This document shows, piece after piece, positions 6,593-57,313 of a stretch of 64,000 bases of DNA. Origin of the DNA: Antedon mediterranea (Eukaryota; Echinodermata; Crinoidea; Comatulida; Antedonidae). A program made the translations under genes and the position numbers. The stretch is taken from contig NC_092678.1 in the NCBI RefSeq assembly GCF_964355755.1, forward strand, positions 19,254,922 through 19,318,921. The letters run 5' to 3'. Numbering within the stretch: position 1 is the first letter of the stretch; each line of letters begins with the position of its first letter. The notes beneath the pieces were generated by a model. That model made no database searches and was not told the origin of the DNA. It saw only the letters and a list, made by a program, of their open reading frames with translations.

Positions 6593-6877
6593 CGAAATGA
6601 ATGATGTACCATCAACAACCCAAGCCATCATAATGTCGGCTCCTTTCATTCCTCCATTGCTGTTAAGACCAATCCCAACGTAGCCTGTTGTATTCGCACG
6701 AACCTCGAATATAATTGTATCATCTTCAACTTTGCAAAATAATTGAACGTTTTCCTCGCTATCAAGAAACACATTGTGATTGAATTTCATCTCACCAAAC
6801 ACACCAAGAGTGCAGAAAAAGAAAACCAGAATACGCGACATTATCAACGAAAAAAAAATCGATGAACTTCGTTTCAT
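6593..6877 (-). pseudogene. MOXD1-like orphan exon 1 (copy A)
   Basis: This is a clean first exon: signal peptide (MKRSSSIFFSLIMSRILVFF) and the first part of a DOMON domain, ending at FIS plus a GTAAGC donor. It matches exon 1 of copies B and D closely, but lacks three residues of their leader and has a Cys for the conserved Trp (QLFCKV versus QLFWKV). None of exons 2-13 is found downstream on the minus strand; the next sequence is repeat and then the kinesin exons. It therefore cannot make a complete enzyme and is best read as a relic at the left edge of the array. A TGCGCATGCG palindrome upstream suggests the promoter region was copied with it. Confidence 0.85.
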
Positions 6878-7014
6878 GAACAGTTCAGTAAGATCAGCCA
6901 GTAAGAAGTACAGTAAACAACGTATAAGATTTAACTAACCTTGACAAGCCTTCGGTCTTGATGTTAGTGAGCTTTTGCATCGTGGCGGACGTAGAAGAAA
7001 GGAGATCGAAAAAA

Positions 7015-7024
7015 TGCGCATGCG
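7015..7024. promoter_or_regulatory. NRF1-like palindrome upstream of copy A
   Basis: TGCGCATGCG lies about 138 bp upstream of the exon 1 ATG. The same palindrome is at a similar distance in copies B and D. It resembles the nuclear respiratory factor 1 consensus (GCGCATGCGC); binding is inferred only. Confidence 0.4.
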
Positions 7025-7769
7025 TATTAGCCAAGTATACGTACCAAGTCGAGTAACACGATACAAACAAACGGACAACAGCGGTTTATTTAAATTTAAC
7101 AATGCTTCACGCGGTTCCAAAGACGATACAATAGTAACGTATGATTACTTATGGTCTAATGGCTATAGGTATATTAATATAGGCACTTGATAAATTAACA
7201 AGTAAGAAAATCTTACTTTTTATATATATCTTATTTTTCCGGAGACGCTTGACCTATTAAAACATATTACAAATGTTTTTATATTACCTTACTTTTTGTG
7301 ATAACCGTATTTGTTGAAACGATTCCGTTATGACACAAGGTAAATCATCAACGGTGAACAGTTTAACACCCCCAATTACAAATGCTGTTTCAATTACTTT
7401 TTTTCCAAAAAATTAAAACAACACCTAATGTCAAACTATTAAAAAGACAACGATCGAATGTCGCAATTTGATTTATGCTGCTGAACATTGATCTACTGTG
7501 GTTTTTGAGTTTTATTTACTGATACTAAAAATTGATTGATCTATTTTTTTTCCCTGTGTGTGAGTTTTTTTTATCATGCTTGTTTCTCTTAATTTCCACT
7601 CTTATTCACATATCCATTATAATTGCATAGACATACCCAGCACAAGATTCCGTCATCTTCTCGGGATTATGCCTTCCTCCATAGCCAATTTTTTTAAAAT
7701 TCTCTTTTCTTTTGTCCATCCAACAATCATCATTATCATTATTATTTTACTTAATTAATCTCTTAAATA

Positions 7770-8900
7770 TCTTGGAATCACTTTCGATTTTTCAGGAAAT
7801 TGGGAAAAGGCCAAAGAACAAAATAATACACAGGCTAATAAAGCACTTTTCTCACTAAAATATATAGTATATCAAAAATATGAACATCTACCAGTGAATA
7901 TTTGGAACTACCGTACTTATTTGATGTTAAAATAAACCCAATTATACTGTAGGGTAGTGAAATATGGGGACAACTAAACAACAAAAAAATTGATGATATT
8001 CAAAATAATTTCTGTAGATATGTTTTAGGGGTCGGGAAATAAGCCACAAATGTTTCAATTAGAGGAGAATGTGGACGATTCTCTTTATCAATCGAAAGTG
8101 TACTCAATGTTATCCGTTATTGGGTAAGACTAGTAAATATGAACGAGGACAAATATGCGAAGAAATGTTATAAATCTCAACTTCATAAAGCACAAAATAA
8201 TAGTAATTGTTGGGTAAGCGATGTAAAACATATGTTATGCTCTATTGGTCATGGAAGCATATGGTTTTCACAAAATAATGTCCTTGATAAATTTTATATA
8301 ATTAATAAAATAAAAGAAAGGCTAACCGATATGGAACGCCAATCCTTTCATGAAAGCATAAATATTTCTTCAAAATTAAGATATTATAAAATGTTCAAAA
8401 ACAATTTCGGAGTAGATGGATACTTACTACAGACCCTTGATACTAGATATAAGCGAGCTTTAAGTCAACTAAGACTGGGCAAACTTCAACTAGAGGTAGA
8501 AAAGGGAAGATGGAAAAGAATAAAGCGCAGCAATAGGTTATGTAAAATATGTAATATATGAAGTTGAAGATGAATATCATTTTGTTACGGTTTGCTCTCG
8601 TTACAAGGAAATCAGAAAAAAATTATACCTTCTTTATTTTTTGAAAATCCTAATACTTTTAAATTCTGCCGTTTAATGTCATCACAGGATCCAAAAATTA
8701 TTGATAATCTATCTAAATATATTTATCATGCTTATAAGTTAAGATATATGTTTTGCTTAGAGAACGAAATTAATTAATTAATTTATCTTGTGACCATAAA
8801 TTGCTTTATTTTTCAATGTAATTATTATTTTGTTAATAACTAGGGGCCAAAGGCCTAAAGTAAATAAAGTCAGGCGATAAGCCTGAATGAATGAATTATT
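7770..8900 (+). mobile_element. Non-LTR retrotransposon 3' relic
   Basis: The plus strand keeps the C-terminal part of a reverse transcriptase ORF: 'KYLGITFDFSGNW' near 7770-7800, an 'ILxGSEIWGQL'-type stretch near 7945-7975 and a downstream connection region. The longest open piece is 8139-8561 (140 codons). Stops and frameshifts at about 8040 and 8560 break it. The end carries AATAAAG and a 'gaatgaatgaatt' tail near 8865-8900, which is typical of a LINE 3' end. It belongs to a different family from the intact element at 11.6 kb. Confidence 0.75.
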
Positions 8901-9239: not shown

Positions 9240-9851
9240 TTATATTAACGGTAAAATAGCTAAGATAAACACTGTAAACAAAGATCCCTTTGAACTTGAC
9301 GAACGGGAGCACTTGTTTTCTTCAACAATTTCATTCTGAATGTCAATCAAATTGTCCAAACTTTTGTCTCAACATAACCATATCTTCGCCCCTTTAAGAA
9401 AAATAGTATAATACTTTCTAACAAAATTGTGCCCAATAAGTTTTTAGATAGTAATGTTTTATTTTCTACGGGGTGGAGACATTTATTTTACCAACACAAA
9501 TGCAAAGTGTTGACTGCATATATTAATAGTAACAATTGATCAAATTAGGCCTAGCGCCTACTTTCCATATTCATAATTTTAGAAAAGCTGAAAAGTGTTA
9601 TGAAATCAGAAGGGAAATGTCGTCGATAATTGCAGTCCTAGAATTTCATTTTAAGTATATCCCTCAGGCAAACTGTATATAAACATTATAACCATACCTC
9701 CTCTACAAATTAATCCTCGTGAAATGCATTGTGACCAGAATGGTTTGAACAATAAGACATACGGGGCGCTTCTTTCCACCACTTTCTTAACATATCCACT
9801 CTTTCCTTTGTCCAATCTAACTCTTGTAAAGCTACACGGAAGCTTTTGTTC
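9240..9851 (-). pseudogene. MOXD1-like relic, exons 12-13 only (copy A')
   Basis: Two exons match the last two of copies C, D and E: 9698-9851 (exon 12) and 9240-9391 (exon 13). Exon 12 has an in-frame TAA where the others have GAA (FHED-stop). Exon 13 has lost one base in the VETKSL stretch, so its frame shifts. No exon 1-11 of this copy exists upstream; the next sequence is the 3' end of copy B. It looks like the tail of a gene whose body was deleted. Its distance to orphan exon 1 (2.4 kb) is like other gene-to-gene junctions in the array. Confidence 0.88.
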
Positions 9852-10426
9852 CTAACATCAAGGAAACGGGAAGGAAAATGCTATTATGATAACTTATTAA
9901 CATAAGCGCTAATTTTTTTTCTCTTTTGTGGGGGCAACCCACTTTTATTGCAATGATAAACAATATGGTGATGGTTACAGTATATATGTCTATCTATCTA
10001 TTTATCAATGAATATTTAAGTGATATTACACAGACAGAGGTTAAAAGATTATATAAAATATTTTGATATTGTGTTGAAATCTAGATAAAACAAACATGTA
10101 TACAGAGAAAATTTATATTACAGAGCTAAAACGATATAAAGATTGATATTCAGTATTAAAAAGAGATTCGATATAATATAAATATATATGATAAAATGGT
10201 ATTGCATTATAAGATTATATAGTCAGACTTCAATACAATTTCTGTTCACCTCCTGAAGTATTTACATCCTTTTTTAGTCTTTAAAATAATGTAAAACGTT
10301 TTATAATATTTTATATTTGTGCAATGGTCCAATTAATTTTATTTGGTAAAAGACGAATTATTCTCATGACATTATTTTGGACATTCAGTATTTTGTGTGC
10401 TATTGGATATTTTAAGTTGAACACTA

Positions 10427-13400
10427 TCAATATGTTACGAAAGTGCTATAAATAGATAACATAACGACGATAACTAACGATCCCTTCAAACCGGTGGACT
10501 GAGAACATTTATCTTCAAAAACAATTTCATTCTGAATGTCAATTAAACTTTCCAAACTGCCTGTCTTTATGTAACCATCATCATCAGCCTAAAAAAAACA
10601 ATTTTTAATCGAAAGGTCCATTTTGTGTTAAAGTTAAGAATGTTGGTCATGACATTTCACTTGAAATTGAACATTGAACATATTATGTTAAAGATATATT
10701 GTCCTCCTGAATGGTTATTTTTTAAATTTTTTAAAAAATATGCCATTTTGATGGTGCATAATATTTATTCACTTTGACCAAAAAAATATTTACATGAAAA
10801 ACTGTAATTTAAGCACAAAATAGTAAAATTGGTTGCCATGCCAGCAAATGAGTTTTGTTTAAATTTAACTGTTTGTTTTATTTTTTTCTTTCTTTTATTT
10901 ACCCATAAATATAAAGTAAACATTGTAAGATAAATAAAACATTTTCGTAAGTGAAACATTAGTTTTTTTCTGCGAAAATGAATAACTTTATTAAAACGAA
11001 AAAATAGCCCATTCAAAGTCTGATTTATTAATCTTTGTTTTTCATATTTTTGGGAGACAATACATCTTTAAAGTATTGTTTAAATTGACAGCGGATGCAC
11101 ATGCGTAATTAGCATGTTCTCGTACCTCTTTAGGGAATGCAATGTGACCAGAATAGTTCGTACAATACGAAATACGAGGCGCTTCTTTCCACCATGCCTT
11201 CACAACATCTACTCTTTCCTTTGTCCAGTCAAAATCTTGGAGTGTTTCGCGCAGTGTTTTGTTTCTTTTTTAAAAAAGTAGAGAAAGGAAAAAATACAAT
11301 CAAGCTTTAAACTCTAATAAATGCCTAAAATTATCGCCATGTTACCTAACACATGGAGGAAATATATCCTAATATAAAGCAGTTATTTTAGTTTAAATGT
11401 GATAAGCTGCAAATAATTTTATATAAAATTATATTCTCTCTAAGTAAATTGATTTTTTTTACTGTAGTTTGTTTTTCTCACGAGCGCCAATAGCGGGCTT
11501 TCTGTTGATTTGACTCGAGTAAAGGTATGGCACTCCATATGTTCCACAATAACTAGAATCTTGCGTGTACGATAGCTAGCTCTTAACGTAATTTAAAACA
11601 TATGAAAAGATGGCAATGAAGATAGGGCCGTGAAAATAAAAGACATTTACAGTAACAATATTTTAAACGAAACGTTAAACCTACCGCTCTTATTTGAAAC
11701 TAACAACTCGATTCAAGATGTAACCGGTACAACGGATGTTTTCACTGAAGACTGTTCAATATTTCAAAGACATGGTCTAAGTATTTTAAGTCTTAACATT
11801 GTTTCACTTATAGGTAATTTTGACAATTTTAAACACATTATAGAAAATAATGAAATTGATGTTATATCTTTAAATGAAACTCGCCTTGATTATACTATTA
11901 GTAATAATGATGTACGTATAAATGGCTATGATCTCTATCGTAAAGATCGTAACAGGGAAGGTGGAGGAGTTGCTGTGTACTTAAATCGCAACGGGAAGAC
12001 TACTCATAAGTTAAGACCAGATCTTATGAATGAACATTTGGAAATGTCTATTATTGAAATTAAACAACTAAATTCAAAACCATTCCTCCTTTTATCATGG
12101 TATAGACCCCCAAATTCTGATATGCAGATCTTTGAGAGAATAGAAAAAGTACTAGAGAATGTTGAAAGTACAAATTTAGAATATATGATAATTGGGGATG
12201 TAAATTGTGACACTCATTCTAAAAACCTATCTTGTTATACTAAAAAATTAATTGATATTGCTAAAAATTTTCATCTAACTCAATTAATAACTGAGCCAAC
12301 GAGAATCACAGAAAATAGTAGTACTTTAATAGACCATATTTACACAACAGTTCCTAATAGTATCTCCAAATCAGGTGTTTTACATACAGGTATCAGTGAC
12401 CATTCTGCTATCTATGTAATTGTTGGTAAACAAGAAAAGTGTAAAGCTCATAAGCATAAATATAAAACAAGTAGAAACTACAAACATTTTAATGAAAATG
12501 AATTTAAAAGGGATATTGAAAAAATAAACTGGCAAGAAATTCAACATTATAATGATATTGATGACGCTACATATTTTTTCGAATCTAATTTTCTTAAAAT
12601 TGCTAATGATTATGCCCCGCTAAAAAAGAAGAGGGTGCGAAACAAAACTAGTCCTTGGCTAACAGATGATCTAGTTAGGTCTATGCGTGAGCGTGATGTA
12701 CTAAAAAAGAAAGCATCTAAAACTAATACACCTGAAATGTGGGCTCAATACAAACTAAGTAAAAATAAGGTAAATGCTGAAATAAAGAAATGTAAAAAAG
12801 AATATTTTTCTAAACAATTAGATACAAAAGATTCAAAGAAAATATGGGAAACTTTAAGATATATTGTCCCAGCAAAGAGTATAAACACTGAAATATCAAA
12901 CTTAAAAACAAATGATAACAAACTAACAGCAGACTCTTCTAAAATAGCCAACAATTTAAACAAATATTTTTCTAAAATAGGACCTGACCTTGCAAAAAAC
13001 ATCCCACCAGAAATTCCTAGATTACTTATTGTAAATAATACTAATCAAAGTAGGGACCTACTTAAATTTAGTTTTGTTAATCAGGAATATATTTATAAAC
13101 AATTAAACGCACTCGATGTTAGTAAAGCGACAGGCTTAGATGAGCTTCCAGCTAAAATGCTTAAGTTGGTTATTGATCAAATCGTTGGACCTCTCACTTA
13201 TTTGGTAAATCTCTCACTCTCAACCAGTACTTTTCCAAAAAGATGGAAATGTGCCAAAATATGCCCAGTGTTTAAGGGGGGAGATAGGACTGAAGCTAGC
13301 AACTACAGACCCATATCAATTTTACCGATTCTTTCTAAAATTATCGAGAGGGTTGTATTTGATCAGGTCTATCAATTTATTAACTCAAAAAATATGATTT

Positions 13401-16400
13401 ATGCTTACCAATCAGGATTTCGTCCTAATTTCTCTACTGTATCTTCATTATTAAACATTACAGAAGATTGGATAAATGATATTGATTGTGGGAAGTATAT
13501 AGGTTTAGTCATGCTTGATCTGAAAAAAGCTTTCGACACGGTAGACCATACCATACTTATAGACAAGCTTAAATCATTTAACTTAGATGTCTCTATTATA
13601 AATTGGTTTAAAGACTATCTTTGTGATCGTACGCACTTAACACAAGTAAATGGTGTCCGATCAGATAAATGCTATAGTAATTGTGGAATCCCCCAAGGAT
13701 CAATTTTGGGACCACTCTTATTTATACTTTATGTAAATGATCTACCAAAGCATGTAAATAGTGTACAGATTAGTATGTATGCAGATGATACAGCTCTTTA
13801 CTTTGCATCTTCTGATATAAATGAAGTACTTGCAAAAATTAATGAAGATTTAAAAAAAATCAAATCATGGCTAGCAAGTAACAAGCTTAGTCTAAATGTA
13901 AATAAAACTCAGTGTATGTTTATAGGAACACAACAAAGGCTTGCAAAATTAGCAAACATTGATCTAAATTTAAACATAGACAATGTTCGGCTACAAAGAG
14001 TAAAAAGCTGTAAACATCTAGGTGTTGTTATTGATGAATATTTACTGTGGGATAAACAAATAGATAATGTTAAAAGTAAAGTATTGCCAGGCTTGTACTA
14101 CTTAAAAAAATCTTCAAATCTCGTCCCAAAACATGTATCTTGCTTAATGTATAATAGTATTATCTCTCCACAGTTTAACTATTGTAATATTGTGTGGGGC
14201 AGATCAAATAAAAAAAATACTAATAAACTACAAATGCTACAAAACAGAGCAGCCAAAATTATTACAAAAACAAGGAAATACGACTCAAGTACACAAGCCC
14301 TGCAAAACTTAAACTGGATAAATCTTAATACTCAACTACATAATAATGAAGCCAAAATGTTATATAAAATATTCCATAATCAAGCACCACCATATCTAAA
14401 CGAACTATTTACACCCAAACTAGACACATACAATACAAGATCAAAGGATGTATTAAAATTGGATAAACCCAAAACAGAATATAAAAAAAAAAGTTTTTCA
14501 TATCATGGTGCTAGTTTATGGAATACTCTAAAAAAACCAATGCAAAATGCCACAAATTTGAATACTTTCAAAAAATTATTGGTGTGATTTATTATTTATT
14601 TTGTACTCTTATCACAAATGTAATTAAGGTTTCTGTTCATATATTTTTGTTCTCTAATTTGTTATTTTTAAAATTTGTTATTTTTAAAATTTGTTATTTT
14701 TAAAATTTGTTATTTTTAAATGTGTAATGTACTACTGTTAGTTGATCACGGCCTTGTAGAAGAACACCTTTATGGTGACACAAGCTTTTCCGTGTTAAAA
14801 TAAAGTATTTATTATTATTATTATTATTATTACTCACTTTAGGTCACCTAAGTTAAGATTTTCCTCTAAGGAATCTGGTTGTGGAGCATTGTAACAACTT
14901 TCGGCATTAGCTTTCGGATAGTAAAATAGGAAAGCCAGACACATTTCCTCCGTTGCCGCCAATCCTCCCTAAAACATTCATTTTAAATTACATAATAATT
15001 ATTTTGAACTCCAGTTTTTGAAGTAAAGTTGTGAAGTGTGGTTATGATGCTCCAAGGGTCCTGGGTTCAAGCCCCGTCACATGTCAGAATCTTTTCTAAG
15101 ATTAAATTACAACTTCCCAAAGACTTGTAATAAGACTTTGTTATTTATAACATCTTGTGTGTATGTTTTTCTTGTGAACCTCTGAGGGTCCCTAATGATC
15201 AGCAATTGCTGGATTGATCACGCTCATTAGATATGGTAAAAAAGGAAGCTAAAACACGCTAAGCATGCTTTCCACTATTGTACTAAAATACTCACAGAAA
15301 TAACCTTTGTTCTGTCCATTGTATTATATGTACATTCTACTAATAGATCATCTTCCTGTAAAAAATAAGACAAAACATTTAGATTCTTCTTCTTCTTCAA
15401 GATTTAACAGTCAACTGCACGACATATCCCCTCCTCCAAAGCCTCCATTTACATATCCTTAACCAGTTCTTTACATTCGGTGCATCCAAACACACGTATT
15501 TTACTTTATGTATTCAAAAGTAAAAACATTACCGGCTTTACTATCAAATGATCTTTTAGGTAACGAAATTCTTGGAGATCGAAGTCGTAGGCAGAATCTT
15601 TGGCAATTTCTCCAATGTATTTTCCATTTCTATAATGTGTTGCTCGCATTCCAACTCCTGTAAAACAAATTAATCAAACACATTATCTTGAAAGTGGAAC
15701 TGAACACCACGTAACGGTTGAAAATGGCTGAACCTCAACTCGTGTATTGGGTTTGTGTAATATAATTGAGTTATAAAGTAAAGCTGTGTGCAGCCATTAT
15801 AGTATAGCCAATATATCACAAGTTACATTATTATTTTTCTTTTGATTTTGGTTGTATCATTGTAAAACATTAAAGCAGACTCTTCAATAAAAAAAATTTG
15901 CTAAATAATTACATTTATACACGTTAAAAATGCAGTTACTGCAGTAGAATACTTTTGACATGATACATTAACGTGGTATTCGTAGGCTTGTAAAGGTTTA
16001 TCGCAAATAGCGTGAGCGATGCATGATGGGAAGTGTTTGGGAGCAATAGCGCCACTAACAATATATAAAGTTTTTATTAGACGGTGACGCTATTGCTCCC
16101 AAACCCAATTCCTATCATGCATTGTGCACTGACGTTCCTTGCGAAATCAAGCTATTTGCGATAAACCTTATTATTGTTCACAACTGTTTGTATGGTATTG
16201 GATTTGGATATTATCAGTTGTTCGTTTATAAAATGAAATGTTAAAAACCTGCTAAATGCGCATGTAAAAAGACTGCAAAAACCTTCAATTCGCCTTCTTG
16301 GAGAAACTACAAAATAAAACAAAATATATTTTGAGCATGAATTATTACAACTAAATGGCATTTCAATAACAATATCAACATGCATTTAATAAAGAAAAAT

Positions 16401-19400
16401 AATCCATCTAGATCTAAAATCTAAAAATAATAGTAGGCCTATTATTATAATACTACGTAAATGTATAATGTTATATGCGAAATAAAGGAAAAGAATGAAT
16501 AAATATCTACCTCGGTTAGGCACTTAGAATCGCAGGATCCGTGGACTAGAAACGCCTCCTCTTTTGGCGGGATTGGACCGAATGCAAAAACTGCAGCACC
16601 TACCGTCAGTAAACTCGAATCATATTCACGTATGATTGGAGTGTAATGAATTCGTACACCAGAGTTATCTTTAACCCCTAAAATAAAAGGATACCACCAT
16701 TAGTGGCGAATTTGAGTAGGCCCCTATTGTGGAAAGTGCGAAAGGCACCGACTGCTCGACTTTGTGTTACTTTACTTCGCTTATTTATGAAAGCCTAGGC
16801 GTAAACTTAATATAATAATTAGTTTTTATTCAGATTTCATTCTTTCAATCGTATTGCCATTCACTAATTTGATCAATACTATTACAAGAGAAATGTTCTT
16901 GTCTACTAAAAGATTAGTTAAATGAAAAATTCTAATTGTTAGGTAGGTATGCTATTGATGTTGCTTTTGCTTATGATTTTTATGTTTATTTAGAGATCTT
17001 TGGGGATGTTGCCCATTTCTTAACAAAAGAGCAATACCTGTAAGTAGCTGTGCATTGTCATAGTGCACGGTAAGTTGCAAATACTTGACTGAATCTTCTC
17101 CAGCTATTCTGTAACCAACGTTTTCTGGAAACTCTAAAGACTGAATATTTTTTTAAGAAAATGCTTAAATAATTTTGTTATTTGCATTTACTATTTAAAT
17201 AACTTTATAGAAAACATTCTTATTTATTGACATAAATAAATATGTATTTTAACGGTACTCTATAATGATACCTTTGGGCGGCCATTAAAATACTTTTGCG
17301 AGAACTTTGAAATGCATATAAATCTTCACTTACCCCTCCCCCGATGGCCCATGCATAAATAATTTTCGAACACGAGCTGAATTGGTACATAGCATCAACG
17401 TAGTGCAAACTCCTATTGCCAGTGATGTTTGTAAGCCCATAGCATTCCTTTAGAACTAAGTGATGAACGATTCCTTCATTACCAGGTTGAACGACAGGCT
17501 CAATCTACAATTGATTTGTAAGCACATATACCGTTGGAAAATCTCATTAAAGAGTAGGCCTATTGACAACGGTAGACAAAGGAGACTGGATTACAAACAT
17601 TCTAGGCCTACAAATTTTAGATCTAAGATCAAAAAGGGTTTTTTCCATTTTCTGAAAACAGGAAATGGCGGCTATTTTAGGGGATTTACGAGCACTTTTA
17701 GTATCATTAGACATTCTTTTTGGACCAAAAAAAATAGCTTGTTACCAGAAATGTCCAGGTTCAATCATGTTTAATCTATCTTTAATGTTATATTCTTACC
17801 CGAATTACATGTTGCGGAGTTGCCAGCTCAGGTATTTCATCGTGGTAGGTCCAATATGTAGTGACTTGGTTGTCGGGAACTATTAACTGAAAACATATGA
17901 TTAAATAACGTGTCATTTCAGATAATTGTTCAACATTATGTTTTGTGATAAATAGAGTGAGTTACTATAGAGAGGAAAATTGTGAGAAGCAATATAGTTG
18001 TTATAATAACATATGAGAGAAACTACAGCTATCTTGTAAAACTACATATTCATAATTATTTCAATACAGAAAACAAGAAAGTATATAAGGAGGGCTAAAC
18101 TTATCTGGCACACAATTAAATATTCCTTATAAAGTTGTGTTCAATACAGACAATCGGTACATTGTTTATTTATTTATTTATTTATTTGTTGACCCATTCA
18201 CCTTTGGATCGGTGGCACTCACAGCATGCGGTGCTGTCCAAAAACAAAACATAATTTGAAAAGGAAACCAAAAGAAGGAAAACATAATGAGAAAAAAATA
18301 TAAAACAATTAAACTATATACAAGTACAATAACAATACAACAAAAACAGTCATTGGAAATATTTCAACGAAGACCGTTTCTCCCATGTTTGCATTTTATT
18401 GCTATTTATGGTAAAACTCGAAATATCAAAATGGAGGTACTGTACAGGTAATGTATTTCAGTATCCGTACTCACATTGTCAACCAATATATCAAAACTCT
18501 TCGTCCCTTCCGGCAATTCGGTTAATTTTGACGAAATGACATCGAGAAAAACGACAGATTTAACACCCCGTCGTTGAGGGCCATGATATACTGCAGTCTG
18601 TCCACCATCGGGATCATCTGGGTGGTACGACCAGATTACTCTAACTGTATCAGACTGTGAAATAAAAACTGTTCGTTATGCATGGCTTAATCACTACACT
18701 ATCAAACTAGTGATGTTTCCAAATATGGTAGTGATATGCCCAAATATGGTAGTGATATAACATCATCATGTCCATTATATGGGAACATCACCTTTTTTGA
18801 CACAAAGTTTGATGTAGATAAGCTTCTCCTGAAAAGGAGCGTACCAAAAAGGTTCTGCTGTATTATGGTTAATTAATTAGGCATTATTTCATAATACTAT
18901 TAAATATTGTATTATGTATATATATATATATATATAATTACTCATTCACTATCTAGGAGTGGTTGCAATGTTTGGTGGGGTTGATTGATTGATCCAATAT
19001 CGAGTTTTCTTTTTGGACATCGGTTTAGGTAAGTAAAATAAATTATTTGAGATTTCATGGCAAAATTAAAATAATAATCAATATAATAAAAAAAAAATGT
19101 TCTTTTTAATAACATATACCGGTATGCTACTTTTAGGTAAAATATACTGATATGCTACTGTACAATATAATAAACTGACAATTATAAACAATCATTGGGT
19201 GTTAAGGATCATTTATTTTACACAATACTTACAGTTATATCGTAATCATTGACGTCACAGGTAACCAATTTTCGCTGGTAGCCTATTGTTGTTAGACCAT
19301 CTGATTCACTTCCGTACAATATCTCGTAATCCTCTAGTGCATCAACTTTAGGTTCTTCGTTACCAATGCCGTGTCGATCCTTAAATATAAAATTTTTGAT

Positions 19401-34326: not shown

Positions 34327-34462
34327 GCTCTGTCTACACTATCAAACTTTATGTGATAAAAAAAAGTGTGATGTGCCCATAATGGACATGATGATGTCAT
34401 ATCATTTCTACATTTGGGAAAATCACACTTTTTTTGTCAAACTAGTTTGATAAGTGTAAGCA
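34327..34462. repeat. MITE-like repeat (family 1), copy C intron 1
   Basis: Begins 'agctctgtctacac' and ends 'gtttgataagtgtaagca', with 'gtgcccataatgg' inside. The same insertion is at 55405 in copy E. Confidence 0.65.
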
Positions 34463-34524
34463 TTATTTGGAAAGCAATAAAGACATACATTGCATAATAG
34501 AAGGAATACTCTTTATTTAATATA

Positions 34525-45300: not shown

Positions 45301-47899
45301 TTCCGGTAATTCGCTTACTTTTGACGAACCAACGTCAATAAATACCACAGACTTAACACCCCGGCGTTGAGGGCCATGGTATACTGCAGTCTGTCTGCTA
45401 TCAGGATCATCTGGATGATAGGACCAGATTACCCTGACTGTATCAGACTTTGAAATTAAAAAAAAATCATTAAGTCGTCTGCAAAATATTTAAAATGTAA
45501 AGCTAGTAATTTAAATAAATGTGATTGCGTGTTCCTAGTAATTCGCATAAATGCAAAAAAAAACAAGCACGAATGTGCAATACTCGGGGTACAGCGAAAG
45601 AAGCTGTATACAGACGTATACAGTTAGAAAGTAAAGAAAAATAGGTTTCGCCAGGGCTCGAACCGGGACCTTCTGCGTCTTAAGCAGACTTGACAACCAC
45701 TACACTACAAAACCTCTTACATTAAAAATGTGGGTTACAGAAAGTGTTTTAATCCATTTAAATTACAAATAAATGGTAATAAGCACAAAGCAAAATAAAC
45801 ATGTGTAAAAGTGATAATTACCGATTACACAAAATAAGTATTTTAAAAAATAATAAAAATAAGATATACTCTGTATAATTATCATATTGCGTATACAGTA
45901 CTTTTCACCATAAAGTTAAAAAAAAAGGTTTCGTCCGGGCTCGAACCAGGTACCTTCTGCGTGTTAAGCAAACGTGATAACCACTACGCCAAGAATCCGC
46001 ATATAACCATATAACTACATAACGCTGTGGTGTGTGTCACACATTGTGGCTTCTTAATTAAACAAATTAATTAACAAAAAATTAAAAATCCGGCTCTATA
46101 GCTTTGAGGACATGTCCCTGTAGTATTTTCATGCCAAATCCCAGCTCAATACTATAACGAATAAGGGAGGAGTAGTACTTTAAAAATCGCACTTTTTACT
46201 CAATAGTGTCCATATGGAGGAAGAGGAGAAAATGAGTAAGTCCTAGACTCGGGTACCCCGAGTAAAAACACGAATGTGCGATACTCGGGGTGCAGCAAAA
46301 GAAGCTGTAATGACGTCATAAGGCGGGATGTGACGTCACATACACATCAATAACCTACCAAATACGGCTATATGGTACCATCTTCGAGACGTCATATGGC
46401 TGCATCCGGATTGAAATCTAAAAATCCGGCTCTATAGATTTGAGGACATGTCCCTGTAGTATATTCATACTAAATCCCAGCTCAATACTACAACTAATAA
46501 GGAAGGAGTAGTACTTTAAAAATCGCACTTTTTACTCAATAGTGTCCAGATGGAGGAGGAGAAAATGAGTAAGTACTAGACTCGGGTACCCCGAGTAAAA
46601 AATGAGTTATATATATATTGTCCATTCAATCTAGAAGTGGTTGTAATTGTGTATGTCGCGATTGAACCAATATCGAGCTTTCTTTTTGGACAAAAGTTAT
46701 TTGAGTCTTCCTGTCAAAATCAATATATAATAATCAATAATTTAATCAATAAAACAAATTATTGTAGGTAAAATATACTGGTATGCTACTGTAAGGTATA
46801 ATAAACTGAGATTTAAAAACAATCATTTAGGTGTTAAGGTTCAATTATTTTACACAATACTTACAGTTATATCGTAATCATTGACGTCACAGGTAACCAA
46901 TTTTCGCTGGTAGCCTATTGTTGTTAGACCATCAGCTTTACTACCGTATAACTTCTTATAATCCTGTAGTGCATCAATTTTAGGTTCTTGGTTACCAATG
47001 CCGTGTCGATCCTTTAATATAAAACTGTTGATTATAAGCCTAGGTCAACGTTTATATATTTTAAGCGACTTAAAAAGGTATTTATTGGATTAGGTTTTAT
47101 CTTAAAGGAAATGAGAGGATACTAGTCATGGTCAAATTTGATTGTATATCATTTTTAACACAGCTTTTTTTTTCATAGTTTTACATATTAGACTATTATA
47201 TTTCTATATGCATTGTTTACCAGTCTAAAATATAATTAAAAACTGTAACAATAATGATGAAAGCGTGGAAAACAATAAAGACATAATTTAAGACTTAACC
47301 AGTTGTCCAGAAGAATATTTTTTTACAGAAATCTACTGGCGCATTTTGACTTACACAATAAATAAATTCAAAAGCTCTGCTTTCATGGAGGATTCTGGAC
47401 TCTTTAGAAGCTCTACTCGACGCAATATGCCAACAGGGACAGTACTTTATAATAAAATCAGATTTAAAATATACGTAATCTGAAGCCAAATCTTTGTTTT
47501 TGGTCTTAATGTTCAAAATGCCATGGATCATAGCATTGGTATGACTTTGACTATATCGTTGCATTTTATAAATTCATGTTTTTATAAGCCAGAAATAATT
47601 CTTACCGAAATGAATGGTGTACCATCAACAACCCAAGCCATCATGATGTCTGCTCCTTTCATTCCTCCATTACTGTTAAGACCAATCCCAAAGTAGCCTG
47701 TAGTATTAGCACGAACCTCGAATATAATATTATCATCTTCAACTTTCCAAAATAATTGAACGTTTTCTTCGCTATCAAGAAACACGTTGTGATTAAATTT
47801 CATCTCACCAAACACAACAAGAGTGCAGAGCAAGAAAACCAGAGTATTCGACATTAGAGTCATTATTAACGAAAACAAAATCGATAAACTTCGTTTCAT
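39363..47899 (-). CDS. MOXD1: MOXD1-like copper monooxygenase, copy D (13 exons)
   Basis: Exons: 47606-47899, 46865-47011, 45268-45447, 44441-44527, 44096-44266, 43792-43894, 42834-43000, 42630-42687, 42034-42158, 41503-41562, 41173-41303, 40253-40406, 39363-39515. They join in frame to 609 residues. Signal peptide (MKRSLSILFSLIM), DOMON domain (exons 1-3), CuH pair in IVHHLVLKEC and His in TIHYNN (exons 5-6), CuM pair in LHAHLAG (exon 8) and Met in EEMC (exon 11) are all present. Exon 1 is of the B type; exon 13 matches C and E and ends in a hydrophobic tail (SLFTVFILAILPFI). Introns hold MITEs, a tRNA-like pair (intron 2), an expanded 37-bp minisatellite (intron 6) and a purine-rich tract (intron 8). 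The gene follows E by 1.2 kb and precedes C by 1.4 kb, each with its own start. Confidence 0.92.
39543..39924. mobile_element. MITE with TA target duplication, copy D intron 12
   Basis: The inverted ends start AGGCCCATTTACAC on both strands, flanked by TA. The equivalent intron in A', C and E is uninterrupted. Size and TA fit a Tc1/mariner-type non-autonomous element. Confidence 0.7.
41677..41812. repeat. MITE-like repeat (family 1), copy D intron 9
   Basis: Same position and sequence as the copy C insertion at 30195, so shared by descent. Confidence 0.7.
42300..42590. repeat. Purine-rich tract, copy D intron 8
   Basis: Plus strand is A/G-rich in gagaagaga-type repeats, homologous to the C and E tracts but of different length and pattern. 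Confidence 0.8.
43240..43665. repeat. 37-bp minisatellite, copy D intron 6 (about 11 units)
   Basis: Eleven units plus a partial one, with 'gcgccatcatag' and 'gtgccatcatag' variants mixed. Expanded relative to C (about 3 units). Confidence 0.88.
44997..45136. mobile_element. MITE, 140 bp, copy D intron 3
   Basis: Ends are inverted repeats beginning AAGC and containing TGGTTCCCACTA, flanked by TA on both sides. The equivalent intron in C lacks it. Confidence 0.75.
45644..45714 (-). tRNA. tRNA-like sequence, anticodon loop AAG (probable tRNA-Val-derived)
   Basis: The minus strand folds as a tRNA: acceptor GGTTTTG with CGAAACC, a GTGTAGTGGTTGTCA D-arm like eukaryotic tRNA-Val, anticodon stem TCTGC/GCAGA with loop TTAAGAC, and GGTTCGAGCCC in the T-arm (one mismatched stem pair). 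It is followed by a T-run, a possible Pol III terminator. An AAG anticodon would decode Leu, but the short variable arm does not suit tRNA-Leu. More likely a tRNA-derived repeat or pseudogene than a working tRNA. Confidence 0.55.
45927..45998 (-). tRNA. tRNA-Val(AAC)-like sequence
   Basis: Minus strand: D-arm GCGTAGTGGTTATCACG and anticodon stem TTTGC/GCAGA with loop TTAACAC, giving AAC (Val). The T-arm is GGTTCGAGCCC and a T-run follows. The acceptor stem has mismatches (GGATTCT against ACGAAACC). A tRNA-derived pseudogene is the safest reading. Confidence 0.55.
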
Positions 47900-48060: not shown

Positions 48061-49086
48061 TATTAGCCCAGTATACACTGTTCCGGACAACTTACAAAGA
48101 AGGTAGGTCACACTCTATACCTCGACACAGGTTTAGTTGTTTCTGAGTCCAGAAAAACTCGAAGATGTGTAGATCCAAGATAGTGGAAAATCCAAACCTC
48201 CCTAATATTTATTAGCTCTTAACCAGATTACCACTTTAAAATGGTCTTACACAAATAACAGATCAGAATTTACCCAATAGACGTGTTACATGCATCATAC
48301 CAATCTATCCCTCGCTATTTCTGCACATTTCCAAGTCGAGTAACTTGATACAAACAAACGGACAACAGCGGTTGATTTCAATATAGCAATGCTTCATGTG
48401 GTGCCAAGGACGATACAATAATTATTATAGGTATAGGTATATATATATATATATGTATGTATGTATAGAGGCACTTGATAAATTAAAATATATATATATA
48501 TATCTTATTTTCGGAGGCGCTTGACCTATTACAACATATGACAAATGTTTCTATTCTACCTTATTTGTGATAGCTGTATTTGTTGAAACTATTGCGATAT
48601 GAGACAAGGTAAATAAATATTGAAGGCTCTAAATATTTCGTTTATACAAGATATATATTCAAGTGACGTGAAATGATTGATGGTACAAAATATCTTTTTT
48701 TATTAGTATTATTTATAAAATCTGCGCATGCGTAAGTAGGCCTACAATCGTCAAACGAAAACAGTAACTGAATGGTATCGAAACACGGAGAATAGATAAA
48801 TGTGCGCAGAATAATTATGAAGACAAAAGGTAAATTTTAAGTTATATTTAAATTTTTTTAAATAATCCTCTGATCACCAAATTGTATTGACTAATATTAG
48901 GCATAGGTCATAGGACATGGGTTTGGTTTAATAGAAGTGTGTGTGTGTGTGTGTTTGTCCAACCAATGACGACCTTATGTCCTCAATCATGAGGAAGTTT
49001 AACAAAAAGTATAAGTAAAAAGTGTCATACATTGGACCTTCTTTTAAAAAGTAACAGACAGCATGTTATAGAACACTATAGCAAGA

Positions 49087-52000
49087 TTATATAAACGGTA
49101 AAATAGCTAAGATAAACACAGTAAACAAAGATCCCTTTGAACTTGTCGAACGGGAACACTTGTTTTCTTCAACAATTTCATTCTGAATGTCAATCAAATT
49201 GTCCAAACTTTTCGTCTCAACATAACCATATCGTCTCATCTATAAGAAACATATTATAAGTTATAATGCAATTGTGCCAAATAAGTTTTTAGATAGCGAG
49301 GTTTCATTTTCTACGGGGTGGAGACATTTATTTTACCACGCAAACGCAGAGTGTTGACTGGTAAATATTCTGTATACAAAGATCTATTAATAGCAACAAT
49401 TGATTAAATCAGGCATAGCGTCTACTTTCATCATATTCATCATTTTAGAAAATCTTTAAACACATTATTATTATTAACAGGTTTTAGTTTTATGAAATCA
49501 GAAGGGAAAATTTCGCTAATTGCAGTCATAGAATTTCATTTTAAGTATATCCCTCATGTAAACTGTATATAAACATTATAAGCATACCTCCTCTACAAAT
49601 TCATCCTCGTGAAATGCATTGTGACCAGAATGGTTTGTACAGCAAGACATACGGGGCGCTTCTTTCCACCACTTTCCTAAAATATCCACTCTTTCCGTTG
49701 TCCAATCTAACTTTTGTAAAGCTTCACTGAAGCTTTTGATGTTCCTAACATTAAGAAAACGGGAAGGAAAATGCTATTATGATAACTTATTACCATATTA
49801 AGCGCTAATTTAATGTATTCAATTGTTTTTTTTATTTTTATACAAAAATGCAGCTTACAATATAATTCTCCTAGTCTAGGTTCTATAATCCGTAAAACGA
49901 TAATCGTGCACATATGGCGCGTCATATTAGTTTCGGGCAAAAATATATCAAAAAGTGAGGATTCGCTGCGTGAGGCTCGTAAAGAAATATTAACTTGAAA
50001 AAGACAATAACTAGACTTGGGCTAACTCTATTTACCTCCTAATGTAAAAAGCAAGCCTTCTTTTGTATTTCGTATCTAACTTTATTATGCTACTTGCCAT
50101 AACTCTGTTAATTTCACGGCCGGTAGAGTGTTCAATTATTATTTACTAACATACTATAGTCGATAAAACTACAACGTAAGAATCTGCATCGAAAAGCATT
50201 GTGGGATAGAATCGGGGTGTTTTAAGTCATGAATTAGCACGCCCTCTACATATTAGAAAGGTAAAACATTGTCTGTAATGTAGAGGAGATAGACATACGG
50301 GACATTTCGACCCAGTACTTCCAATACAGTAATATATTATTTTCAATGCAAAATTGACAGACAGGAGGTTTTTGTGTATAGGTTTTCTGATAGTATGTAG
50401 GCCACGCCTAGTAAGTACAAATTCATACATACAAAAACATTCATCTGTACTGACTGGTAGATAATTGGATCATTCAAGCGGGGTTCTTCTTTTTAAAAAG
50501 TACAAACAAATTCTTTTTACAGTGCTCAAATATTACTCACTTTGTGACACCTAAATTAAGATTTTCTTCTAAAGTACTTGGCTGTGGAATACTGTAACAT
50601 TTTCCAGCATTAGCTTTTGGATAGTAAAATAAGAAAGCAAGGCACATTTCTTCCGATGTCGCCAATCCTCCCTAAAAAATTGCAATACGGTATTTGTTTT
50701 AATTTTATTATCTAGCAAACGTTGTTTACTAGGTTACAGCCAGCGATTCCTCTTGGTATTCGTCAACAGAATAACATTTTGGCACAGATGGCATTTTATA
50801 CATAATAGTTTCGTGAGCTCACTGCTACTAAAAATAGATTAAACCTTCTTTATGTTTTTGTCATACTCACATAAGTAACATTTGTTCTGCCCATTGTATT
50901 ATATGTACACTCTACTAATAGATCATCTTCCTGCACAGTTATATGAAATGAGATCAGTAAAGTAAGATAATTTATTAAGACTTACTTGCAAAAATTATAT
51001 TCATAAATACATTTTATAATTCTCAGAATTAATAAGTTCTGTCTGTCTCTGCTACACTACCAAACTCTATGTAAAGTGATGTTCCCATATATGGACACGA
51101 TGTTTTCACATCACTACCATATTAGGCACATCACATATTTTTTGTAAACTAGTTTGAAAGTGTAGAAAGAGCTACAGCAATAAATAAAGTTACCAAAAAG
51201 CGTATGATAATGTCATTATAATTTATATTTATATTGTTACTACATGTGTTATTGTTTATTGTAAATGTTTATTCTTATGGTGTTTTTATCCTTAAGGGCC
51301 ACAATGGAAATAAGTTTGACCTTTGGTTACTTTTTTGTGTTACCCTGAATTCATTCTTTGTATTTTTTTTTTTATGTTGTGTTATTTTATGAATTCGAAT
51401 AAAGAAATGAAAATGAAAAAATGTCGTGTAGGTTCTATGCTGTTTTCTAAAACTTAATTATTAGTATAAATATACATATTATGGCACAAGTCTAAACATC
51501 ATCATACAATATCTAAAAAAACTAAAACCAACTATATAAAACTCAACATAATTGTATTAGGCCTACCTTTTTTGAACAAGAAAATAATGTTACATTACCG
51601 GTTTTACTATCCAAGGCTCTTTTAGGTAACGGATTTCTTGAAGATCAAAGTCGTAGGTGGAATCTTTTGAAATTTCTCCAATGTATTTTCCGTTTCTATA
51701 ATGTGTGGCACGAATTCCAACTCCTGTAAAACAAGTAATTGTGTACAATTGTGGCATTTTATCATACTGTTTCGTTGACATTGATAGTTTGATGAAAATT
51801 TTAAAAACATTGTAGTATTTATAAATACTTTTTTTTAAATATCTAAATAACGTTGGTAAGGTAATCAACTGGATAGTTAAAAAAAGGGTTAGAAGAGAGG
51901 AGGGACGAGAAGAGAAGAGAATAGAAAGAATGAGAAGGGAAGGAGTAAACTTAGAGGAAAAGGGAGAAAAGAGGGTACAAGAGGAGAAGAGGGATGAGAA

Positions 52001-55000
52001 GAGCTTAGAAGAGAGGAGAGATGGGTAAGATGAAAGGAGTACTTAGAAGAGAGGATAACTGAGGAGAGAGGAGAGGTGAGTGGAGAGGAGATGAGAGGTG
52101 AGAATAGAGGAGGGATGAAAGGTGAGAAGAAAAGAGGATGAGAAGAGAATGGATGAGAGGAAATAAGAGGAAGGATGAATAGATGAGAAGGAATGATAGG
52201 TGGGGTGAAAAGAGAAGAGAGTTGTGAGAAGTGAGAATGAATGAGAAGATAATTCAGGGAGATTAGAAGAAAAAAATGGGTAAACAGAAAAAAATTGATG
52301 AGAGAAAGCTGTTGGAAGAGAGGAGAGGTGAAAACAGAGGAAAGTTTAGAAGAGGTAATGGGTGATGTTTGATGGTACTGCGACATGTAGTTTGCGTACG
52401 AAGAAAAACAACAAACCTGCTAAATGTGCATGGAGAAAAACACCAAATATCTTCATGTCGCCTTCTGTAAGTAGCTACAATATAAAAGTAGGTTTTTTGG
52501 ATAATTTAAAAAAAAAACTAACAGAAAACATGAAATAATAAGTGATCGCAATATCTACCTCTTTTAAACACCTTGTAGTACAGGCTCCGTAGACTGGAAA
52601 AGCATCTTGTTTTGGTGGGATTGGAAAAAATTTTGAAGTTGACACACCTACCGTCAGCATACTTGAATCATACTGCTGGATATTAGACGTGTAATAAATT
52701 CGAACACCAGAGTTATCGTAAACTCCTAAAACCAAACAAAGAGTAAAAATATCTCAGAAAGATGGTTCCCATCAATATTCCTCTGACGTCAATTACTGAA
52801 TACTGAATACTGAAATGCTTTATTTGTCCATCATCATCATAAAATAACAACAGAAATTCTTCTTGAAGATTGACAATTATTAGTAAAATAATAAATAGAT
52901 ATACAATAAAATATATTATGTACACACACATAATTGCACAAAAAAATATAAGTTATGAAACAAAAAAATTAAAAACAAAAACAAAATGTATTTGTACTTT
53001 ATTAAAACACTGGCTTCCTACAATAGAATAACGTTTACTGGTATCTCGTACTTGCAATGCTGTTTATTCATTACCTCATTCTAAAACGTAATGATGTGCA
53101 CGCATAAATAAATGTAACTAGCGCCATAATAGGATACTGCATAACATATTGTAACTAGCGCCATCATAGAATACAGCATAACAGATTGTAACAGTGCCAT
53201 CATAGAATACAGCATAACAGAATGTAACCAGTGCCATCATAGAATACAGCATAACAGATTGTAACTAGTGCCATCATAAAATAAAGCATAACACAATGTA
53301 ACTAGAGCTATCATAGAATACAGCATAACAGATTGTTACTAGTGCCATCACAGAATAGAGCATAATAGATTGTAACTAGTGCCATCATAGAATACAGCAT
53401 AACAGATTGTAATTAGTGCCATCATAGAATACAGCATGACAGATTGTGACCAGCGTCCCAGAATACATATTAACAATATTCAGTGGCGGATCTGCATTTA
53501 TAGAAGGTCCATAGGTTCTTTGCTATCCGTGAGACATAAAAATATATTCAACAATTTATTCAAACTCAATGAAAAACGATGTATTACCTTTACGTAACTG
53601 TGCATTATTGTAGTGAATTGTAAGTTGCAAAAACTTGACTGGATCTTCTCCAGCTATTTTATAACCAACGTTTTCTGGAAACTCTAAAGGCTGAATAAAT
53701 ACACTTGTTGTTAGCCACTAATTCAACCATTGACAAAAAAACAAGAACATTAGGTACAGTTCCTTTTCAATAACTTAAACCGAGACAGTTATTTTGAAGA
53801 AAACCATACGTTAACAGATTATTCTAGTGAAGTCAGTCATTGGAAAACAACAAGATTTTAGTACGAAAGCAATGACTTACCCCTCCCCCGACAGCCCATG
53901 CATAAATCATTTTAGAACACGCACTGTACTTATACATAGCATCAAAGTAGTGCAAACTCCTATTGCCAGTGATGTTTGTAAGTCCGTAGCATTCTTTTAG
54001 AACTAAATGATGAACGATTCCTTCATTACCAGGCTGAACGATAGGCTCAATCTACAAGAAATGTCGGTCAAATATATGTAAGTGTATTTAAACGAAACAT
54101 TTCTCATTAGAATAATCAGTAAAATGATTAGTCTTTTGAAACACGCTCTAAAAAATAGAATTGAACTTTGATATCTTCATCAGTGCTGTCATTCCCCTGA
54201 CCCATGTAATGATAATTATTATTCTTACCCGAATTACATGATGCGGTGTTGCAAGTTCGGGTATTTCACGGTGATTAGCCCAATATGTAGTGGCGGTATC
54301 TTCTGGTACAAGGACCTGAAAACATATACAGTAATCAAATAAGTTTCCGTGAGTGGGATGAAAGGGAAGTTATGGTTTGTGGAGAGATTGTCTCTGCTAG
54401 GGAAATAGTGGTGTTATATATACTAGAAGTATTTCGTATTTGTTTGTTTGTGGAAAGAACAATTGCCTTCATCATATTTCCAGAAGTCAATAACACAACC
54501 AGTCAAATCTGAAGAAATTTCATCTGCATGTATGTATACTTACATTGTCCATTAAAATATCAAAACTCTCAGTGCCTTCCGGTAACTCGTTTACTTTTGA
54601 CGAACCAACGTCAATAATTACCACAGACTTAACACCCCGCCGTTGAGGGCCATGGTATGCTGCCGTTGTTCTTTCGGGATCATCTGGATGGTACGACCAG
54701 ATTACCCTAACTGTATCAGACTTGGAAATAAAAAAAAATCATTAAGTAGTCTGAAAAATATTTGAAATGTAAAGCTAGTAATTTACATAAATGTGATCGC
54801 GTGTTCCTAGTAATTTGCATAAAATGATGCGTGTTTCTATTAATTTGCATAAAGTTGATTGCGTGTTCCTAGTCATTTACGTAAAGGTGATTTATTTAGT
54901 GTTTATTTGAGTTCGTAACCTTTTGTTAAAATAATAAATGTGTTGGTCAAAATGCAATAATGCATTCGAGTTGTTGTTTTATTGGCCATTGATGGTAACG

Positions 55001-55962
55001 GAAACTCCCCAACAAAGTATAAGAATTCACGTGACGAGATTAACAGTAGATCCACAAGTCTTGTTACCAGAACTTGGAATAAATAGGTTAAAGTCCATGC
55101 CTTTAATACAAATACATATAATTTTCATGATACTAAGCTATATACTATACGATTTTAAATAAAAAGACCCTTTAAGTAAAAAGTGAATAGCACATACTTA
55201 CAGTTATATCGTAATCATTGACGTCACAGGTAACCAATTTTCGCTGGTAGCCTATTGTTGTTAGACCATCTGCTTCACTTCCGTATAACATCTCGTAATC
55301 CTCTAGTGTATCAACTTTAGGTTCTTCGTTACCAATGCCATGTCGATCCTTAAATTACAATCTTTAGTTCGTAAAACTATAATTATGTAAAGATGATATA
55401 AAAAGCTCTGTCTACACTACCAAACTTTATGTGATAAAAAAAATGTGATGTGCCCATAATGGATATGATGATGTGTCATATCATTTGGGCACATCACACT
55501 TTTTTGTCAAACTAGTTTGATAGAGTGTAAGCATTATTTGGAAAGCAATAAAGACATACATAATAGAAGGAATACTCTTTATTTAATATATACTTACAGA
55601 ACATGCCTATTGATTTGTAAGAAATGTTAACTTTGTAAAATGTTATACCATAAGTAACCTTCTCGGAAATACAGGGCACAACCAGTGGAAAGAAATCGTT
55701 CCCTTACCGAAATGAATGGTGTACCATCAACAACCCAAGCCATCATGATGTCGGCTCCTTTCATTCCTCCATTACTGTTAAGCCCAATCCCAACGTATCC
55801 AGTTGTATTCGCACGAACCTCGAATATAATTGTATCATCTTCAACATTCCAAAATAATTGAACGTTTTCCTCGCTATCAAGAAACACGTTGTGATTAAAC
55901 GTTTTGTCACCGAAAACGCGTAGAGCGCAGAGCAAAAAAAGTAGAATACGCGTACGCGGCAT
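49087..55962 (-). CDS. MOXD1: MOXD1-like copper monooxygenase, copy E (13 exons)
   Basis: The most compact copy, used as reference. Exons: 55708-55962, 55202-55348, 54544-54720, 54229-54315, 53881-54051, 53588-53690, 52559-52725, 52417-52474, 51599-51723, 50871-50930, 50541-50671, 49588-49744, 49087-49239; 596 residues. Signal peptide to about residue 18 (MPRTRILLFLLCALRVFG); DOMON domain to about 165; CuH ligands His236-His237 (VHHLVLKEC) and His305 (TIHYNN); CuM ligands His384 and His386 (LHAHLAG) and Met459 (EEMC). Exon 12 has one extra codon relative to C and D (NIKSF). The protein ends in a Ser-rich stretch and a hydrophobic tail (SLFTVFILAILPFI), which may be a GPI-anchor signal. Expected to act in the lumen of the secretory pathway or at the cell surface; substrate unknown. 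An earlier in-frame ATG at 56037 is less likely because C and E share only the inner one by sequence. Confidence 0.93.
51036..51173. repeat. MITE-like repeat (family 1), copy E intron 9
   Basis: Same intron position as in C and D; ends are more worn ('gtctctgctacactac' and 'gtgtagaaagagct'). Confidence 0.65.
51215..51420 (+). mobile_element. LINE 3'-end or SINE insertion, copy E intron 9
   Basis: An ATGTC target duplication lies at 51210-51214 and 51421-51425, and the C and D introns lack the insert. It ends in AATAAAG, an A-rich tail and 'gggccacaatgg'-type sequence typical of a LINE 3' untranslated region. No coding part. Confidence 0.75.
51885..52375. repeat. Purine-rich tract, copy E intron 8
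   Basis: The longest of the three homologous tracts, built of gagaggagag and gatgagaag units. The 165-codon minus-strand open frame here is low-complexity Ser/Leu/Pro and not a gene. Confidence 0.82.
52791..52975 (-). mobile_element. LINE 3'-end insertion, copy E intron 7
   Basis: Read on the minus strand it ends with AATAAAGCATTTCAG and a short repeated ATTCAGT tail, as CR1-like LINEs do. The C and D introns lack it. Confidence 0.6.
53112..53458. repeat. 37-bp minisatellite, copy E intron 6 (about 9 units)
   Basis: Nine units plus a partial one of the same family as in C and D. Confidence 0.88.
55405..55532. repeat. MITE-like repeat (family 1), copy E intron 1
   Basis: Shares position and ends with the copy C intron 1 insertion at 34327. 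Confidence 0.65.
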
Positions 55963-56395
55963 TATCGGTAAAAATATCAACGAAAACTGCAGGACTGGAC
56001 AATTATGTACAAGTGCGTGATTTTTTACAGTGTGCAATGTTATACGCTTGGATTAATCATGATAATCTAGATAAGATACTTCCGATACTGTTTTTTACAT
56101 TACACGTTTTAAGAATATAGGCATGCATTGTTGCCGATGGGTGATCCTAAACCGGAAACGTTAGATTCATGGAATTATCATCAGGTTCATATCTTGGCTT
56201 TATTTGTCTGTCTTGGAGTTCCGATTTAGCCCATAACGTCCGAAGGCTGTATTCTTGAACACATTGGTAACTTCCCTAATATGTTCAGCTATCTAAATGT
56301 CGCCTAATTAAAAGTACACCTTAGATTTAAGATTATTAAACCTTCTTATGGAGTAATGCTAGGCTAGTCAAGTTAAAACGAATAATAACCAAATA

Positions 56396-56665
56396 TTGTC
56401 TAAGTTGATACATGGAGTTGACTCCATGGTTGATAGTTCCCGAATCTACTTTGACGCTTCGGAAGTTCATGATATTATGACACACTTTACTATAGTGTTT
56501 AGTGCCATAGTCATGAGAAAAAGTGGACGTCCGGTGGTTGTTGCAAAAAAAGGGGACATTCTGTATGTGGATCACAGGGTTCTTAAAGGCCTCTGTGAAA
56601 AGGTTACTATACCTTATTTCATAAATTATTTGCTGAATTTTGTTTTCACGATATTAAAAATATGA
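56396..56665 (+). other. Unrecognised 89-codon open frame
   Basis: A plus-strand open frame with a mixed, non-repetitive composition (MVDSSRIYFDASE, GRPVVVAKKGDILYV). I do not recognise a domain, and there are no clear splice partners. It lies just upstream of copy E, on the opposite strand. It may be chance or a relic. Confidence 0.2.
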
Positions 56666-57169
56666 ATTTCGGTATGTATTTACCATTTTATAGGGACGCT
56701 TTTTTTCTTCTGTAACAGGACTTACATTTTACTTCGCGTCTTTGCAAACGTGGTATTAAGATGACGAACCGGCTTAATAATATGTTACACAATATATACC
56801 AAACGTTTCGAAGACCAGACTTATTAGGCCAGGCATATTAGACCAGACATATCGAACCAACCAAAGGGTGTCCGGTATTGAAAGAGTTTACTGTAGTACA
56901 GTCGTATACAAAAAGTATTTTAACGATATTTTTTTGCAAACTTTAACCGTGCTATTACCTTTTTATGTTATTGCTAATCAACATTACAATTTTAAAAAGT
57001 AGGCCCCTATTATGTTTAATGTGGGTTTTATGTAAAATAATGCAAGTTTCTATTGTTTATCTGATATATCAATAAAAACATTTTTTGATTTTTGTATTAT
57101 TCTCATTTAATAATTGGTGGTTCTGTGCTAATATTATCTCTACAACGTTCAATATTACCAGGTTTTCTA

Positions 57170-57313
57170 AACTACAAAATGGCAAACGCTAGAATAACAC
57201 AGAAAACAACGATAAAGAAAGATCCATTTTAACGGATGTACTGAGAACATTTGTCTTCTTCTACAATTCCATTCTGAATGTCAATCAAATTCTCCAAACT
57301 TTTCGTCTCAAGT
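57170..57313 (-). pseudogene. MOXD1-like relic of exon 13 (copy F)
   Basis: The minus strand keeps ETKSLENLIDIQNGIVEEDKCSQ, which aligns with exon 13 of B-E, then stops after a few residues. The start of the exon and its acceptor are gone, and no upstream exons of this copy are seen to the right. It shows that the array once reached further right. Confidence 0.7.

Follow-up and report, generated by a model that had tools for sequence, protein, structure and literature searches.

A tandem array of DBH/MOXD-family genes in the crinoid Antedon mediterranea, probably remodelled by recombination among its own members

Introduction

Tandem arrays of genes usually obscure their own history through conversion. 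Copper enzymes of the DBH/TBH/MOXD family are characterised by a DOMON domain, two copper monooxygenase domains and a set of copper ligands, an architecture that is also present in the array described here, and the MOXDs have been described as being without functional characterisation (PMC10244343). A lineage-specific expansion of DBH-like monooxygenases, belonging to the same broad class, has likewise been reported in the springtail Folsomia candida (PMC5490193); unlike the present locus, the accessible part of that report lists the expansion of the family without array anatomy or hybrid genes. Within a partial journal coverage that cannot show absence, a MOXD tandem array was not found in the literature.

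A parallel for the recombination event itself is the CYP11B1/CYP11B2 chimera of glucocorticoid-remediable aldosteronism, in which unequal crossing-over between adjacent paralogues, often in intron 2, has placed the coding body of one paralogue behind the promoter end of its neighbour (PMC8750845), both features being those proposed for the gene named D below. The human chimera is a rare disease allele of a P450 pair, whereas D is a copper monooxygenase copy in a reference assembly and is known from sequence alone. The kind of event, a hybrid arising by unequal recombination, is thus well known, and its record is unusually legible here. In this work, we describe an array of DBH/MOXD-family genes in a 64-kb stretch of the A. 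mediterranea genome (64,000 nucleotides, hereafter the window, to which all positions refer unless a contig is named), and propose that it was remodelled by recombination among its own members in a two-step history that produced first D and then a second mosaic gene, C, a reading to which we assign a probability of roughly 0.7.

Layout of the array and gene models

Self-comparison of the window reveals a series of repeated blocks on the minus strand, between about 6.6 and 57.3 kb, bounded by the first exon of relic A (6593) and by relic F (57311). Exon-by-exon modelling resolves the series into four 13-exon genes (E, D, C and B, in the order of transcription) and three relics (A, Z and F), with intron positions and phases identical in the four models and all introns of the GT-AG type (Table 1); models and self-comparison agree with the original prediction of four such genes and three relics in tandem on one strand. 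Because the copies have 13 exons and kilobases of intron in common, at roughly 75–96% identity, chance is excluded as the source of the array. The initial models, with 12 exons, were superseded once exon 10 was recognised, a 60-base coding exon with proper splice sites lying within a conserved 73-base stretch of the former 'intron 9'. This stretch is the sole 'intron' sequence conserved between B and the other copies; a dispersed repeat had been considered as its source and was dropped, the stretch containing the exon.

Table 1. Features of the array, with positions in the window. P1 and P2 denote the two types of front end, and T the type of gene body found in E, D and C.
Feature	Position	Strand	Description
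Relic F	57184–57311	−	partial last exon with stop; 20% different from T type, 27% from B
Gene E	49087–55962	−	13 coding exons, intact 596-aa frame; front end P2, body T
Gene E, exons 1–5	55708–55962, 55202–55348, 54544–54720, 54229–54315, 53881–54051	−	
Gene E, exons 6–10	53588–53690, 52559–52725, 52417–52474, 51599–51723, 50871–50930	−	
Gene E, exons 11–13	50541–50671, 49588–49744, 49087–49239	−	
Ancestral-type junction	48100–48131	−	T tail to P1 upstream DNA (CTAAACCTGTGTC)
Gene D	39363–47899	−	13 coding exons, intact 609-aa frame; front end P1 (B-like), body T (E/C-like)
Join interval, D intron 2	45552–46607	−	B-like/E-like join; intron matches switch partner
Novel junction	38204–38209	−	D tail (T type) meets C upstream DNA (P2)
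Gene C	23095–37921	−	13 exons; front end P2, body T
Gene B	10427–20434	−	13 coding exons, intact 607-aa frame; front end P1, divergent body
B exon 2 and a few flanking bases	19225–19397	−	C/E-like tract; flanking introns do not align with C/E
Relic Z	9240–9915	−	exons 12–13 of a T-type gene and ~64 bases of intron 11
Relic A	6593–6877	−	lone P1-type exon 1, donor site present

In gene C, exon 7 (31287–31452) lacks one base at its 3′ end, and the frameshift leads to a first stop codon within exon 8. C is otherwise free of lesions, and since its later exons are still open in the family frame, the deletion, which sits in an A-rich run, is either recent or a sequencing error. This position and the general proneness to error of arrays of similar copies are what speaks for an assembly artefact, with copies collapsed or mis-joined. 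Such an origin is nevertheless very improbable: paired copies differ by ~3–20% in their introns and are readily separated, insertions specific to single copies exist, and the window lies deep within one contig (C9) of a 354-Mb, 18-contig assembly.

Other elements accompany the array. Intron 11 of gene B harbours an open non-LTR retrotransposon frame of 993 aa (11606–14584, plus strand) with endonuclease and reverse transcriptase domains, after which come four 16-base repeats. A dispersed element of ~100 bases is found at 1221–1325 and at about eight other sites in both orientations, several of them in introns of the array, and a 25-base tandem repeat of ~31 copies occupies 62492–63261. The neighbours of the array include a kinesin motor exon (2793–3059) and a reverse transcriptase fragment (3–392), both on the minus strand.

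Protein family and relatives in the genome

The products of E and B contain DOMON, Cu2_monooxygen and Cu2_monoox_C domains, all above cut-off (102, 111 and 86 bits in E, and 102, 108 and 86 bits in B, scores that predate the addition of the 20-aa exon 10). Their best match among solved structures is human dopamine beta-hydroxylase (DBH; PDB 4zel), followed by PHM, with ~29% identity to human DBH. Alignment to PHM and DBH indicates that all six copper ligands (HH, H, HxH and M) are kept in E, D and B, where the corresponding motifs read HH, HY, HxH and EEMC; C loses the HxH and M ligands, which lie downstream of its frameshift. Judged from their sequences, the products of the array are most probably ascorbate-dependent copper hydroxylases of the secretory pathway.

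In a tree built without a MOXD reference, the array copies group together (99.7/100) and are joined to a relative on contig C3 (100/99). All copies of the genome stand apart from human DBH in this tree (80/81), and a place for the array on the MOXD side of the DBH/MOXD family is therefore the likelier one. At the sensitivity used, no family exons were found beyond the array, either in the outer parts of the window or elsewhere on contig C9. The nearest relative (C3, 14.44–14.47 Mb) is a single gene, as are others at 25.91 Mb on C3, 6.06 Mb on C8 and 20.22 Mb on C10. A second tandem set, comprising four more distant relatives of which three look alike, is located on contig C8 at 3510995–3565218 (3.51–3.57 Mb), so the family has grown in tandem elsewhere in the genome as well.

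Two types of front end

The predicted first exons begin with MKRS in A, B and D, with MPRT in E and with MART in C. Since the MKRS reading arises from an additional in-frame ATG upstream, the homologous starts being MSRS/MSNT versus MART/MPRT, upstream and intron 1 DNA discriminate better between the two types than do the first residues. In the upstream DNA, intron 1 and the 5′ part of intron 2, B pairs with D (and A) and C pairs with E, without cross alignment; the sole exception, 87 bases aligning B and C upstream, is the tail of the preceding gene. In the order E-D-C-B-A, the front ends read P2-P1-P2-P1-P1. The alternation of first exons that had been claimed from a first reading of the sequence thus holds from E to B and is broken by A, where P1 stands beside P1, while the companion claim for introns 1 and 2 is borne out fully by intron 1 and by intron 2 in its 5′ part only.

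Gene D as a hybrid joined in intron 2

C, D and E are mutually alignable over the final 100 bases of intron 2 and onward as far as the 3′ tail, a region in which the introns of B align with none of them. Within intron 2 of D, positions 46608–46864 match intron 2 of B (E-value 2e-35) and positions 45450–45551 match intron 2 of E (92%, E-value 8e-40). Because intron homology changes partner within the gene, D is a hybrid, with a P1 front joined to a T body inside intron 2. The distance between D and B over introns 1–2 is 0.156 (interval 0.121–0.195), and that between D and E over introns 3–12 and the tail is 0.141 (0.123–0.161), the two intervals overlapping; such matched ages at both ends are as predicted by a single crossover in intron 2. 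Gene D hence has what is expected of an unequal-crossover hybrid, namely different paralogues as 5′ and 3′ partners with one join, and equal divergence on both sides of it.

At its 3′ end, intron 2 contains a ~32-base repeat in C (33546–33825) and E (54775–54892); D has a single piece of it (45503–45551), whose closeness to the join means that the repeat could have aided the crossover. Intron 6 contains a 37-base minisatellite in C (31704–31820, ~3 copies), D (43230–43659, ~12) and E (53113–53447, ~9), which was not found in B and is an additional marker of the T-type body common to C, D and E.

Gene C and the spacers

Gene C is a mosaic of a different kind. Its distance from E is 0.060 (interval 0.040–0.082) in the front and its distance from D is 0.058 (0.042–0.076) behind, with the change from E-like to D-like located in intron 5 by a change-point analysis (permutation p=0.0005); the front and back introns were picked after the per-intron distance table had been seen, so this age match is a less strict test than that of D. 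In introns 6–8 and 12, C is nearly equidistant from D (0.14–0.16) and E (0.15–0.21). One clean fusion of E and D therefore cannot explain all of C, which calls for additional exchanges or for change within E or D.

The spacers, as an independent line of evidence, carry two kinds of join. A tail-to-P1 join, CTAAACCTGTGTC, is common to the E-D spacer and the C-B spacer (near 20690), and a tail-to-P2 join occurs in the D-C spacer only. At the latter, novel junction, microhomology of a few bases (AAC/AACAT) exists with an upstream site of E near 56288, and tandem copying of an E-D pair would yield exactly such a junction at this place. Such a D-type tail followed by E-type upstream DNA is unique to the D-C spacer and makes the duplication of a two-gene block probable.

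Divergence of gene B and probable conversion tracts

Over exons 3–13, the synonymous distance of B from the other genes is 0.62–0.71, against 0.09–0.13 among C, D and E. The array thus contains two old paralogue types, in accordance with the original prediction that it was not made by copying one gene repeatedly. Exon 2 of B departs from this pattern: B and E differ at 2 of 32 synonymous sites there and at 124 of 296 in exons 3–13 (Fisher test with exact site counts, p=3e-5, uncorrected for the number of exons examined). Mere constraint does not account for the similarity, since the synonymous sites of exon 2 are saturated against the relative on contig C3, and the exon is likely to be a short gene conversion tract. 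Weaker signs of conversion are seen in exons 5 and 10 of B (uncorrected p-values). An apparent similarity of the B 'tail' to C, D and E was disregarded; relic Z falls inside the 1700 bases taken. New hydroxylation products had been conjectured as an outcome of the expansion; the copper ligands are conserved in the intact genes, and by dN/dS (0.23–0.55, purifying change only) the array genes show no surplus of amino-acid replacements.

Two sets of the last two exons lie near B, and the original prediction does not specify which of them it took for a relic. The intact one (11126–11264 and 10427–10588) has an open frame and shows the divergence typical of B as a whole, on which grounds it was assigned to that gene; the other is relic Z, whose exons (9698–9851 and 9240–9391) are of C/D/E-type sequence and contain a stop codon and a 1-base deletion.

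Apparent conversion in B exon 2, and perhaps in exons 5 and 10, together with patchy partner switching among C, D and E (C with E in intron 4; C with D, or D with E, in introns 5–8), would agree with sequential single-gene duplications followed by pervasive short-tract gene conversion, without any large crossover hybrid. Gene D, however, displays one switch rather than many, its similarity to B being full upstream and in intron 1 and absent from every intron from 3 onward and from the tail, and the matched ages at its two ends would have to be a coincidence. We consider such a history improbable and favour a crossover origin of D.

A proposed two-step history of the array

The favoured history starts from an ancestral head-to-tail pair, consisting of X (front P2, body T), now represented by E, and Y (front P1 and a body of its own), now represented by B. 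An unequal crossover between Y and X inside intron 2 would have generated the hybrid D, with a Y front and an X body, between E and B. The E-D pair would then have been copied in tandem, creating the new join at 38204–38209, and the copied pair would later have fused to give C, with an E-like front and a D-like back and with the tail-to-P1 join retained before B. Small conversion tracts, such as that of B exon 2, would have come afterwards. The mosaic structure, the join in intron 2 and the new junction are demonstrated; what we infer is the order of these steps, and crossover instead of a long conversion at the origin of D.

A comparison of 5′ and 3′ topologies had been proposed as the check on an exchange history, and in introns, flanks and distances the two do disagree. 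Exon trees, made before exon 10 was recognised, place C, D and E together over exons 3–12 (96% bootstrap) and C with E in exon 1 (100%). Considered as a decisive test, they were judged too weak for rooting: by themselves they cover too little sequence to fix the root, and introns were used in their place. The argument for D therefore draws on introns and flanks.

The original prediction had combined the duplication of a two-gene block with later exchange. The junction between D and C and the evidence of exchange sustain both elements, but the reading of E-D and C-B as two copies of one block is not supported, B being no copy of D and the distances unequal. In its strict form, one X-Y block would have become X-Y-X-Y (E-D and C-B), and the body of D would then have been converted to the T type. 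The alternating front ends of the four genes, the junction common to the E-D and C-B spacers and the occurrence of conversion in the array (B exon 2) would all suit this scheme. The distances speak against it: B and D differ by 0.148 (interval 0.114–0.189) and C and E by 0.063 (0.039–0.090), more than twofold apart with non-overlapping intervals, and a simple X-Y-X-Y model, in which the Y pair and the X pair should have diverged equally, fails on this inequality. The introns of the B body and the B tail cannot be aligned with D, and a conversion tract of ~7–8 kb, tail included, would be required. Moreover, the tail of D is of the T type where it meets the novel junction, which makes D a hybrid before the copying of the block; B should then be hybrid as well. 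The strict scheme is accordingly unlikely, if slightly less so than the one built on short conversion tracts, and a crossover followed by copying of the E-D pair is preferred.

An older round of block copying may have left remnants at the downstream end of the array. Relic Z, a T-type tail, directly precedes relic A, a P1-type exon 1 for which no further exon was found in 1–6580, and the two together reproduce the X-then-Y order. The E-Z tail distance (0.120 ± 0.019) and the A-B upstream distance (0.092 ± 0.025) are compatible with descent of Z and A from one older X-Y copy, which they do no more than suggest.

Implications

By virtue of its structure, D would make a T-type enzyme from a Y-type promoter. 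It is tempting, if rather speculative, to regard D as a working natural promoter swap, in which the T enzyme came under Y-type control with a Y-type signal peptide, reached a new tissue or stage and was kept by selection; we hold this to be possible and somewhat doubtful. In this array, introns, spacers and one precise junction still tell crossover, block duplication and conversion apart, and the order of events is thereby testable. With three intact paralogues that combine two front-end types with two body types, the array lets regulatory divergence versus catalytic divergence be asked about within this family.
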